Part shown: in pieces, positions 4,924 through 15,230 of the stretch
How positions within the stretch are numbered: the first letter of the stretch is position 1
Layout: every line of letters begins with the position of its first letter
From: a virus
Direction: 5' to 3' (one strand)
Length of the DNA: 22,376 bases
IMG/VR virus record: IMGVR_UViG_3300032284_001575
Coordinates: 1-22,376 of that record
Made by a program: the position numbers and the translations under genes
The notes under the pieces: model-generated
What the model saw: only the letters and a program-made list of their open reading frames with translations
The model's database searches: none
Told to the model about the DNA's origin: nothing

Positions 4924-5184
4924 TTGACTAAATCTTACGTTTTAAAAGGTACGGAAAACGAATATCTTTTGGTCATAAGAGCAGAAGATGAAAAAGCAAT
5001 ATATAAAGTAATAGACCATTTATATTCCAGCAGAGTAGCTGAAATAAAAGAGTTAGCAAGTGAATTAGAAAAGAGTTTAAACGAAGATGTTAACAGAGGA
5101 AGTTCTAGCGAAACTGGATCCAAAAACAAGAGCAAGGGTTCAAATAGCAACAACAGTAGACGTGGAAAAACAAAAGACTCCTAG
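4924..5184 (+). CDS. small hypothetical protein, TTG start, overlaps recA-like gene
   Basis: An 86-aa protein of unknown function starting at TTG 4924, three bases after the previous stop. A GGAGGAAG ribosome binding site lies upstream. Residues 1-57 look like a folded domain (SYVLKGTENEYLLVIRAEDEKA, then a helix). The last ~30 residues are a basic Ser/Asn/Gly/Lys-rich tail encoded out of frame over the first 98 nt of the recombinase gene. The composition of that tail suggests it arose by overprinting and may be non-essential or disordered. Confidence 0.6.
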   Translation: MTKSYVLKGTENEYLLVIRAEDEKAIYKVIDHLYSSRVAEIKELASELEKSLNEDVNRGSSSETGSKNKSKGSNSNNSRRGKTKDS

Positions 5185-6085
5185 TATAGGTCTTAATATG
5201 GCTTTAAAGGGTGGCCTTGGCTATGGCAGACAAGTTTTAGTATGGGGTAATAAGTCTGCTGGTAAATCTTCCTTTTGTTTGCAAATGATTGCAGATGCAC
5301 AAAAAAATGGCAAGGCTTGTGCTTGGATTGATGCTGAGGCTTCATATTCTGCAGAGTGGGCAACAAAACTGGGGGTTGATTCAGAAAAACTTATTTATTC
5401 ACCAGCTAAAACAATTAATGATATGGTTGATGTAGCAACACAGCTTATGGACGCTGGAGTAGATTTAATAGTTGTTGATTCTATTTCTGCTTTATTGCCA
5501 GCAATTTATTTTGAAAAAGATAGTTCTGAATTAAAAAAGTTAGAAGACACCAAGCAAATTGGTGCAGAAGCAAAGGATATGACACATGCAGTCAAAATGC
5601 TTAATTATGCCAATAAAAATACGCTACTCGTTCTTATTTCTCAGCAGAGAAATCAGTTTGGGTCTATGCATGCCAGCCACATCCCTACTGGGGGAATGGC
5701 AGTCAAATTTTTCTCTAGTACCGTTATCAAACTCTGGTCTTCCGAAGCTGAAGCAAATGCTATTAAATCTGGAGTCCAAGTTGGCGATAAGATTATTGAA
5801 CAAAGAGTGGGGAGACCCGTTAACTGGATCATTGACTATAACAAACTCGGACCCCCAAACCTTTCAGGTCAATATGACTTTTACTACCAAGGAGATAACG
5901 TTGGAGTTGACTCCGTAGGAGAAATAGTTGATGTTTCAGAAATGATGGGTATTATTCAAAAGGGTGGTGCTTGGTATACAGTTGGAGAAGAAAGATTCCA
6001 GGGTAGAGCCAAGGTCGTAGAGTACGTTAGAGCAAACCCAAATGTAATAAAAGATTTGCAGGATAAAATATATGCCAAGTCTTGA
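5087..6085 (+). CDS. RecA/UvsX-like recombinase
   Basis: Phage strand-exchange ATPase of 332 aa. It has the Walker A motif GNKSAGKSS (residues 54-62), a CAWIDAEASY strand with acidic Asp82/Glu84, Walker B LIVVDSIS (127-134), and the ISQQRNQ segment (184-190) before a loop-2-like Gly/Met-rich stretch. The conserved TPSIGLNMALKGGLGYGR preceding Walker A is typical of phage RecA-like proteins and supports using the upstream ATG 5087 rather than the Met in NMALKG, although the ribosome binding site there is weak. It overlaps the preceding small gene by 98 nt and the next gene by 14 nt. It probably works with the ssDNA-binding protein and the resolvases encoded around it in replication restart and recombination. 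Confidence 0.93.
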   Translation: MLTEEVLAKLDPKTRARVQIATTVDVEKQKTPSIGLNMALKGGLGYGRQVLVWGNKSAGKSSFCLQMIADAQKNGKACAWIDAEASYSAEWATKLGVDSEKLIYSPAKTINDMVDVATQLMDAGVDLIVVDSISALLPAIYFEKDSSELKKLEDTKQIGAEAKDMTHAVKMLNYANKNTLLVLISQQRNQFGSMHASHIPTGGMAVKFFSSTVIKLWSSEAEANAIKSGVQVGDKIIEQRVGRPVNWIIDYNKLGPPNLSGQYDFYYQGDNVGVDSVGEIVDVSEMMGIIQKGGAWYTVGEERFQGRAKVVEYVRANPNVIKDLQDKIYAKS

Positions 6086-12692: not shown

Positions 12693-12765
12693 GCCCTTCT
12701 AGCCCAGTGGCAGAGGCAGTGGACTTAAAATCCATACAGCGTTGGTTCGAATCCAACGAAGGGCA
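12693..12765 (+). tRNA. tRNA with UAA anticodon (Leu), short variable arm
   Basis: Acceptor GCCCTTC/GAAGGGC, D arm GCC/GGC, anticodon stem GTGGA/TCCAT with loop CTTAAAA (TAA at 12726-12728), T arm GTTGG/CCAAC with TTCGAAT, and discriminator A. It would read UUA. The variable region is only about 5 nt (ACAGC), whereas bacterial tRNA-Leu normally has a long variable arm. Amino-acid identity is therefore a little uncertain. Confidence 0.85.
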
Positions 12766-12768
12766 CAA

Positions 12769-12881
12769 GGCTATACATGGCACTATACTTAGGATGTTAT
12801 AGTTACATATACATATCCCGTGTCGTAAGAGTCATGGAGAGATAGGGCAGCGTCATTCGGTGCTGGAATCCATGTATAGCC
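12769..12881 (+). ncRNA. candidate structured RNA inside the tRNA cluster
   Basis: A perfect 12-bp inverted repeat (12769-12780 with 12870-12881) encloses 89 nt with no open reading frame. Internal hairpins are plausible: CTATA/TATAG (12783-12787 with 12798-12802) and a 7-bp CAGCGTC/GGTGCTG stem (about 12848-12865) with an AUUC loop. The 3' strand is followed by CC and TTTTT (12882-12888), which resembles intrinsic termination. It starts 3 nt after tRNA-Leu and ends 10 nt before tRNA-Gln, so it could be processed from the tRNA transcript. It lacks a T-loop, so it is neither a tRNA nor an obvious tmRNA. I do not recognise the family. Confidence 0.55.
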
Positions 12882-12891
12882 CCTTTTTCAT

Positions 12892-12962
12892 TCCCAGGTC
12901 GTCTAACGGTAGGACATCGCCCTTTGGAGGCGAGTATCTTGGTTCGAATCCAGGTCAGGGAG
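12892..12962 (+). tRNA. tRNA-Gln(UUG)
   Basis: Acceptor TCCCAGG/TCAGGGA with one A-A mismatch, D stem GTCT/GGAC, anticodon stem TCGCC/GGCGA with loop CTTTGGA (TTG at 12924-12926), T arm CTTGG/CCAGG with TTCGAAT, and discriminator G as usual for Gln. CCA is not encoded. It reads CAA. Confidence 0.88.
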
Positions 12963-12986
12963 CAATTATTTTAATAAGAAATGAGG

Positions 12987-13962: not shown

Positions 13963-14397
13963 ATGACAAACCTAGTATATAAAGACCCATTCAAACAAAT
14001 TCAATCTATTTTTAATGACCCGTTCTTTTTAGGGTTTAATGATCAATTTGTAAGATGGGAAAACAATAAGAAAGTAACATCCACATTCCCCCCATACAAT
14101 GTAAAAAAAGTTGACGAAGATAATTTCTTGGTTGAACTTGCAGTAGCGGGGTATGATCGTGAAGATCTTGATGTAACAGTAGATAAAGATACTCTTATCA
14201 TCAAAAGTAATCGTGATAATGAAGAAGAAGGTGATTTCTTGCATAAAGGAATTGCTGGACGCAATTTCACGCAAACCTTCACGCTTGGTGAATATATGGT
14301 TGTTAAATCAGCTTCGCTTGATAATGGATTATTAACCGTAAAAATTGAACGGGAAGTACCTGAAGAAGCCAAGCCTAAAACAATTAAAATAAAGTAA
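13963..14397 (+). CDS. small heat shock protein Hsp20
   Basis: A 144-aa alpha-crystallin-domain chaperone that holds unfolding proteins in a soluble state without ATP. The N-terminus DPFKQIQSIFNDPFFLGF is the pattern seen in phage Hsp20 proteins. The core runs from PPYNVKKVDEDNFLVELAVAGYDREDLDVTVDKDTLIIKS to the hallmark SASLDNGLLTVKIE (A-x-x-x-N-G-L-like). The tail carries KTIKIK, an I-x-I type motif used for oligomer contacts. It has its own promoter (13894-13902), a structured leader and an AAAAGGAGC ribosome binding site. A GroES gene lies 5 kb downstream. Confidence 0.94.
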   Translation: MTNLVYKDPFKQIQSIFNDPFFLGFNDQFVRWENNKKVTSTFPPYNVKKVDEDNFLVELAVAGYDREDLDVTVDKDTLIIKSNRDNEEEGDFLHKGIAGRNFTQTFTLGEYMVVKSASLDNGLLTVKIEREVPEEAKPKTIKIK

Positions 14398-14406
14398 TGA
14401 TATAAT
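14398..14406 (+). promoter_or_regulatory. extended -10 promoter for a structured transcript
   Basis: TGaTATAAT directly after the hsp20 stop codon, identical to the boxes at 629 and 13894. No gene starts within 130 nt, so the transcript would begin with the structured region 14408-14510. The first arm of the 9-bp inverted repeat straddles the predicted start site. Confidence 0.5.
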
Positions 14407-14407
14407 A

Positions 14408-14510
14408 TTAATCTGCACCCTTTCATCGGGGAGTCGCAGATTAAGTCGGGGGAGACAGCGACTATAAATATTCTGGTATAGTCCTGAGCATGACTGTAAA
14501 AAACTGCTCA
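14408..14510 (+). ncRNA. candidate structured RNA or 5' leader between hsp20 and the holin-like gene
   Basis: A noncoding stretch dense in inverted repeats: 9 bp (14408-14416 with 14436-14444), 7 bp (14460-14466 with 14477-14483) and 6 bp (14485-14490 with 14505-14510). A competing pairing AGTCGC/GCGACT (14432-14437 with 14458-14463) excludes the first two stems, which is the kind of alternative folding seen in switches. It begins at an extended -10 promoter, and a second TATAAT precedes the next gene, so it may be a free small RNA. Family not recognised. Confidence 0.45.
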
Positions 14511-14525
14511 TATTTAAAAATCATG

Positions 14526-14531
14526 TATAAT
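14526..14531 (+). promoter_or_regulatory. -10 box for a leaderless holin-like transcript
   Basis: TATAAT, preceded directly by TG, ends 7 nt before ATG 14539. No ribosome binding site lies in between. Confidence 0.5.
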
Positions 14532-14538
14532 TGATTAT

Positions 14539-14790
14539 ATGTGGAACAAAATATCAACATATTTTAAAAGATATCCAGCCAGAGTGTCTGGGTATACATC
14601 AGCATTAATTTTGTGGGGACACAAATATTTTTCTGGTAAATTGATGGATTTATTAATCCCATCAATCATGTTTATGATTGGTATGGGGGAAATGGCACAA
14701 AGAACAGAAAACAAAAAAACAATAAAAGCACTATATATAGAAAATGATCCAAATAGATCAGATGAAGATATAATTAAGGATATAAAATGA
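14539..14790 (+). CDS. small membrane protein, holin candidate
   Basis: An 83-aa protein with two hydrophobic stretches: ARVSGYTSALILWGHKYF (about 14-31) and LMDLLIPSIMFMIGMGEMA (about 36-54). They are followed by a charged tail QRTENKKTIKALYIENDPNRSDEDIIKDIK. Two short membrane helices and a charged cytoplasmic end fit a phage holin, and an endolysin gene lies 2 kb downstream. The GMGEMAQRTENKKT stretch resembles other actinophage membrane proteins as I recall them. An ATGA overlap with the Dps gene couples the two, which is odd for a pure lysis gene. Confidence 0.6.
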   Translation: MWNKISTYFKRYPARVSGYTSALILWGHKYFSGKLMDLLIPSIMFMIGMGEMAQRTENKKTIKALYIENDPNRSDEDIIKDIK

Positions 14791-15230
14791 ATGATCAAGA
14801 TTTAATTGACGCTTTAAAAACATTAAAGTCAATGGTTGTAAAAATGTACGTACAATCACACGGCTACCATTGGAACATAGAAGGCTCTGGATTTCCACAA
14901 TATCATAAATTTCTTTTAAAAATTTACTCAGATGTATATGAATCTATTGATCCAATTGCAGAAAATATACGTAAATTAGGTGCAAAAGCACCATTTGGGT
15001 TAAAATCTTGGCAAGAAGGTAGCAAATTAGAAATTAATGATTCTGAAAATCTTGATGCAAGAACTATGTTTCAAGAGTTAGTTCAAACAAACACAGTAGT
15101 CCTAGCTATGCTTAGAAGGACTTATGACATCTCTAATGAATTAGATGAACAAGGAATTTGTAATTTTATTGCGGGAAGAATTGAACAACATAAATTCTGG
15201 CAATGGCAGTTGACAGCAACTCTAAAGTAG
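14787..15230 (+). CDS. Dps-like ferritin (DNA protection/iron storage)
   Basis: A 147-aa protein of normal Dps length. Dps dodecamers oxidise Fe(II) with H2O2 and store it, and some bind DNA. The inter-subunit ferroxidase ligands are all present as His28, His40, Asp55 and Glu59. Their spacing of 12, 15 and 4 matches E. coli Dps His51, His63, Asp78 and Glu82. Around them are SHGYHWNIEGSGFPQYHKF and DVYESIDPIAENIRKLG, the family hallmarks. The C-terminus GRIEQHKFWQWQLTATL is also typical. There is no long Lys-rich N-terminal tail, so DNA binding is less certain. It is co-transcribed with the holin-like gene and followed by an intrinsic terminator. Confidence 0.92.
   Translation: MNDQDLIDALKTLKSMVVKMYVQSHGYHWNIEGSGFPQYHKFLLKIYSDVYESIDPIAENIRKLGAKAPFGLKSWQEGSKLEINDSENLDARTMFQELVQTNTVVLAMLRRTYDISNELDEQGICNFIAGRIEQHKFWQWQLTATLK

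Follow-up and report, generated by a model that had tools for sequence, protein, structure and literature searches.

In an uncultivated phage, does the gap that separates two tRNA genes hold a structured RNA of its own? The question is raised by a 22,376-base IMG/VR virus record (IMGVR_UViG_3300032284_001575), which was analysed at its full length and is called the window below. The original prediction, made from the sequence alone, had described a perfect 12-bp inverted repeat around 89 nt in the tRNA-Leu/tRNA-Gln gap, and its coordinates proved exact (GGCTATACATGG and CCATGTATAGCC; Table 1). It had also held that such a stem would rarely arise by chance. This was borne out locally, as shuffles of the 125-nt spacer gave a perfect 12-bp repeat in only 9 of 20,000 cases, but not for the window as a whole, where shuffles gave 0.57 perfect 12-bp repeats (arms within 200 nt) on average and the real sequence contains a single instance with arms at most 200 nt apart. 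Therefore, the stem alone is little proof on the scale of the window: although improbable within its spacer, the repeat would be weak evidence by itself. The window copy was only moderately unusual in its folding energy (z -2.6), while five of six relatives tested fell at z -4.8 to -5.6 and the sixth at -3.5. The decisive evidence for the element is conservation and covariation.

Table 1. Positions of the RNA element, its helices and the flanking tRNA genes in the window.
Feature	Position	Strand	Basis or remark
tRNA-Leu(UAA), upstream neighbour	12693..12766	+	ARAGORN; 2 nt from element
Whole RNA element, 113 nt, long class	12769..12881	+	cmsearch model R1, 107 bits, E 5e-28, exact ends; own-model score, as the window copy belongs to the training set of R1
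P1 5' arm, probable RNA start	12769..12780	+	Pairing in 323/324 cells, 10/12 pairs compensatory; promoters of free-standing relatives
P5 5' arm CUUA, within conserved CUUAGGAUG	12788..12791	+	Pairs with 12843-12846
P2 hairpin, invariant loop within UAUAGUUACAU	12793..12817	+	Fold of window copy
P3 hairpin CCGUG/CAUGG, conserved GUAAGAGU loop; proposed helix	12818..12837	+	Most of long class
P5 3' arm UAGG	12843..12846	+	Pairs with 12788-12791
P4 hairpin CAGCGUC-AUUC-GGUGCUG (arms 12848-12854 and 12859-12865)	12848..12865	+	95% of cells paired, alignment A2, six pairs counted
Unpaired GAAU, end of conserved CUGGAAU	12866..12869	+	Near-invariant in long class
P1 3' arm	12870..12881	+	Same as P1 5' arm (323/324 cells; 10/12 pairs)
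tRNA-Gln(UUG), downstream neighbour	12892..12963	+	ARAGORN; 10 nt from element

A pattern scan with both arms of the repeat returned a contig, L001, with an element at 5090-5201 that is about 96% identical to the window copy and sits between tRNA-Gln and tRNA-Gly. More loci were gathered through the terminase and through an 80-aa DUF7455 protein, and three IMG/VR motif scans gave partly overlapping sets of 81, at least 120 and 55 matching stretches. When all collected loci were searched, 136 distinct copies proved to have a good closing stem (P1). The element was present in 20 of 25 loci that had a terminase at least 80% identical and at least 1.8 kb of downstream sequence. Family members range from 73 to 132 nt in length and include a short class of 73-90 nt. 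A model of the short class retrieved two long-class copies, L102 at E 0.0015 and L189 at E 0.003, and the matches had their ends 2 nt within P1; therefore, the two classes are related. The window copy carries the features that define the family: a covarying closing helix of about 12 bp, a CYUURG...AUG..UAGUUAC hairpin and a GUGC/UGGAAU-like 3' segment.

All copies came from uncultivated contigs. No copy was found among isolate phages by blastn with several queries against 50,697 records, the matches being tRNAs or chance-level pieces, or by the models in seven isolate phage genomes, in searches run without a positive control. One motif scan, specific to the long class, of cellular genomes from 84,980 species gave two matches, and neither was a convincing element. 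The nearest isolates by terminase were Streptomyces phages (65%), with weaker matches to Rhodococcus and Gordonia phages, so the host is likely actinobacterial. A literature search found no paper describing the RNA. Structured RNAs of viruses and phages, more than ten thousand in number, were reportedly predicted in a 2023 study, whose unnamed candidates may include this motif.

Covariation establishes that selection maintains pairing in the closing stem. Across 27 distinct long-class copies, 99.7% of P1 cells were paired, both-sided compensatory changes occurred at 10 of the 12 pairs and one position showed five pair types. In the short class, all 429 P1 cells of 39 copies were paired, with compensatory changes at 6 of 11 pairs. 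For the whole long-class structure, 82 cells showed both-sided changes versus 23 in shuffles, and sliding the partner columns by one lowered the pairing from 94% to at most 43%. Parsimony counted 44 both-sided versus 9 one-sided changes in P1 on a tree built from the element interior only, with P1 left out. A test of covariation in related contigs had been proposed with the original prediction, and the compensatory changes in P1 are the opposite of what an unconserved spacer would show.

Nearly the same P1 arms, GACTACAGATGG or GGCTACAGATGG, were seen with clearly different interiors in L113, L176, L105 and L223, and in L113 and L176 the GACTACAGATGG block is joined to two different cores. This pattern suggests recombination at the conserved core or stem. 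The P1 arms seem to have been exchanged as blocks between interiors and, therefore, the 44 both-sided events are not all independent.

For the interior of the long class, we propose a layout in which P1 encloses P5, P5 encloses P2 and P3, and P4 follows before the unpaired GAAU leads back to P1. The 7-bp stem with an AUUC loop that had been noted from the sequence is present (CAGCGTC/ATTC/GGTGCTG in the DNA) and corresponds to P4, but that description of the internal pairing was incomplete, as the fold contains further helices. P2 reads UAUA-GUUACA-UAUA in the window; UAUAGUUAC is invariant across 27 long copies and UAGUUACC across 47 short copies. P5 changes from CCUUA/UAGGG to CCUUG/CAGGG in relatives, an A-U to G-C covariation seen in four sequences that counts as one event on the tree. 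P3 is present in most long-class copies and absent from the short class, and the loop-proximal pairs of P4 are variable. On the tree, no pair of P5, P3 or P4 had more than one inferred double event, and these helices rest mainly on conservation and energy. Outside P1, the helices are so nearly constant in sequence that they show little covariation. Retained in the short class are P1 and an AUGG/CCAU hairpin whose loop is UAGUUACC; most copies also have a GGC/GCC hairpin, and a GAAU-like stretch stands at the position of the long-class GAAU. A mini-ORF, AUG-NNN-UAG, in the conserved core was considered and rejected, since its frame is broken in several members, and the motif was read as structure.

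The position of the element in phage genomes bears on whether it is a gene. Within tRNA arrays, the tRNA in front of the element is one of at least seven kinds (Leu(UAA), Leu(UAG), Gln, Met, Thr, Asp and Ile) and ends 0-2 nt from it, and the tRNA that comes next (Gly, Gln, Thr, Lys, Ser, Pro or Asn) is mostly 3-10 nt away; in the window the tRNA-Leu lies upstream and the tRNA-Gln downstream. The element moves as a unit between tRNA contexts. Many copies have no nearby tRNA. A sigma-70 TATAAT-like -10 box ending 3-10 nt before P1 was found in 75 of the 90 copies that are not preceded by a tRNA. The same test gave 6.6% for positions drawn at random from these contigs and 2 of 45 for tRNA-adjacent copies. 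In 10 of the 75, a TTGACA-like box at a distance of 16-19 nt accompanied it. Since the box stands just ahead of P1 in free-standing copies, the start of P1 is the likely 5' end of an independently transcribed gene, and the element is probably an RNA gene that begins at the stem. In L369, L377 and L403, the element heads a tRNA run behind a promoter. The 2 nt between tRNA-Leu and P1 in the window point to co-transcription and excision, and maturation of this copy by tRNA enzymes is plausible. The upstream tRNA-Leu(UAA) is itself only 74 nt long and lacks the long variable arm usual in bacterial tRNA-Leu.

The terminator role implied for the T5 run behind the stem was not supported. A scan of the window predicted no intrinsic terminator after the stem, and the run is missing in most relatives (e.g. 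'ccccatttgcg' in L001), so a terminator was rejected. The genes downstream of the copies do not all belong to one family, and this speaks against a cis leader. Upstream, an Hsp20-like neighbour gene is common to 58 copies, and therefore some of the context is conserved by descent.

Other features of these loci were also recorded. At 13963-15230, next to its tRNA region, the window encodes an Hsp20 (PF00011) and a ferritin-like protein (PF00210). In L330, L332 and L341, the gene immediately upstream of the RNA codes for a protein that by eye resembles the phosphate-binding PstS, and it is a possible auxiliary metabolic gene. A second uncatalogued RNA-like element lies downstream of the Hsp20 gene at 14401-14509 of the window and also occurs in L304, L340, L345, L011, L086 and L092. 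It consists of a TATAAT at 14401-14406, then CTGCACC..GGGGAGTCGCAG, GTCGGGGGAGACAGCGAC and a pseudoknot-like AGTCCTGAGCATGACT..AACTGCTC; a related GACCTGAGCA motif was found in 63 distinct segments of the collected loci, and the L345 copy had no convincing match in Rfam. One sub-class of the main family has a promoter and then GTCGGGGGAGACAGCGAC..CTGGYAT, or a close variant, before the closing stem (L328, L355, L359, L362, L364, L370, L372, L373, L383, L387, L393 and L402), and GTCGGGGGAGACAGCGAC..CTGGYAT or a close variant also occurs at 14445-14479 of the window. It is as if RNA modules had been exchanged between neighbouring small-RNA genes.

The element was compared with catalogued RNAs. 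At the gathering threshold, Rfam release 15 gave no match for the window copy and 17 relatives, and a relaxed E-value for the window element and one short-class copy returned only chance-level or tRNA-related matches. The cmscan check suggested with the original prediction thus found no family. ARAGORN and a tRNA covariance model ignored the element, which lacks the T arm GGTTCRANTCC and any GTTC motif, and a tRNA pseudogene was rejected. Retron msr-msd RNA is a folded RNA between terminal inverted repeats and is alike in this respect. However, a reverse transcriptase (PF00078) was absent from 19 large contigs carrying the RNA, while control genomes gave matches, and a retron RNA was rejected.

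Structured phage RNAs from tRNA regions have been described before. RNA C (139 nt) and RNA D (119 nt) of T4, species 1 and 2, are stable small RNAs of unknown function from its tRNA cluster (PMC9697503, PMC3014915). The element is likewise encoded within a phage tRNA cluster, but it has no covariance-model similarity to RNA C and D (models R1 and R3 were silent on the T4 genome), it lacks the tRNA-like T arm of RNA C (GGTTCGAATCC) and the predicted folds of RNA C and D have no 12-bp closing helix. GOLLD and ROOL are structured RNAs of phages and prophages that often lie close to tRNA islands and have no known function; GOLLD often exceeds 800 nt and ROOL is large and ornate (PMC12286853). The element shares their tRNA-island habit but is far shorter (113 nt; 73-132 nt in the family) and matches no Rfam model. 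By sequence, size or model, it joins none of these, and on this basis it appears to be a new family of a known kind, the phage small RNA of unknown function. The original prediction of a new structured phage RNA in the tRNA cluster is thus supported by the covarying family, the lack of an Rfam match and the transfer between tRNA neighbours.

We put the probability at roughly two in three that the element is a small structured non-coding RNA gene, from a non-Rfam family of uncultivated phages, which is co-transcribed with tRNAs here and acts in trans. In the window phage, a joint transcript with the tRNA array would yield the RNA, cut free by the processing enzymes of the adjacent tRNAs, and its paired ends would shield it from exonucleases. 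A stable trans-acting RNA is the most likely reading, and the conserved unpaired stretches point to a bound partner. The least certain steps are that the RNA would act in trans during infection rather than on a neighbouring gene in cis, that the unpaired UAGUUAC hairpin loop, CUUAG and GGAAU might be displayed to the ribosome or to a protein of either the host or the phage, and that the acting form might be a small RNP or a decoy.

Four other explanations were weighed against this one. It is unlikely that the RNA is a trans-acting antisense sRNA with the UAGUUAC hairpin loop as its seed. Displayed on a short stem, this loop ranks with the best-conserved unpaired parts of the family, but other unpaired stretches are equally conserved and its complements are not enriched in phage sequence: GUAACUA was seen 75 times in phage loci versus 79 expected, and GUAACU near start codons 38 times versus 34. 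A seed against phage mRNAs was therefore rejected. A decoy role toward a tRNA-acting host factor, either a processing enzyme or an anticodon nuclease of a defence system, would fit the tRNA-like spacing within tRNA arrays. Also, P1 equals in length the stacked acceptor and T stem of RNase P substrates, which is 12 bp. We regard this as distinctly unlikely, given the many copies away from tRNAs and the lack of tRNA sequence features, an anticodon or a T loop.

A cis-acting leader or structured spacer that only aids the expression or processing of neighbouring tRNAs would suit both the close fit of the window copy inside its tRNA run and the three copies that head such runs. It is quite improbable, since the unpaired core is conserved far beyond the needs of a spacer, many copies are tRNA-free and the downstream genes differ. 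Bacterial Y RNAs (YrlA and the Deinococcus Y RNA) are about 100 nt long with paired ends, and the element resembles them in its size and in the long helix that joins its ends. A phage counterpart would bind a phage or host Ro60/Rsr (TROVE) protein through this helix and serve in RNA quality control. Bacterial Y RNAs are described as tRNA mimics and have been reported from mycobacteriophages (cited in PMC12282133), and Comrade, a related Streptomyces phage, has a Ro-like protein gene in its tRNA region. However, the element has no tRNA-like domain or Rfam Y-RNA match, the models found no copy in Comrade (in searches without a positive control) and a TROVE protein was encoded in 0 of 32 records, mostly RNA-carrying phages and several of them over 100 kb, while a control genome matched. 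A Y RNA with a phage Ro partner was therefore rejected, and we consider this whole explanation very improbable.

As for its wider meaning, we lean slightly toward a virus-specific class of structured RNA, unrelated to any catalogued family, that is borne by many uncultivated phages, travels as a passenger of tRNA arrays or as an independently transcribed gene and acts on the host in trans, either as a decoy or as an RNP. If this is true, with at least one further uncatalogued RNA in the same neighbourhood, these phages would carry a small-RNA island. Small RNAs of unknown function next to phage tRNAs have been known since RNA C and D of T4, and comparative material has been scarce. The present family offers a likely 5' end and more than 100 natural variants in several sub-classes, down to a minimal form of 73 nt; therefore, its conserved core and its partner are directly testable. 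A covariance model of the family would annotate many environmental phage genomes.
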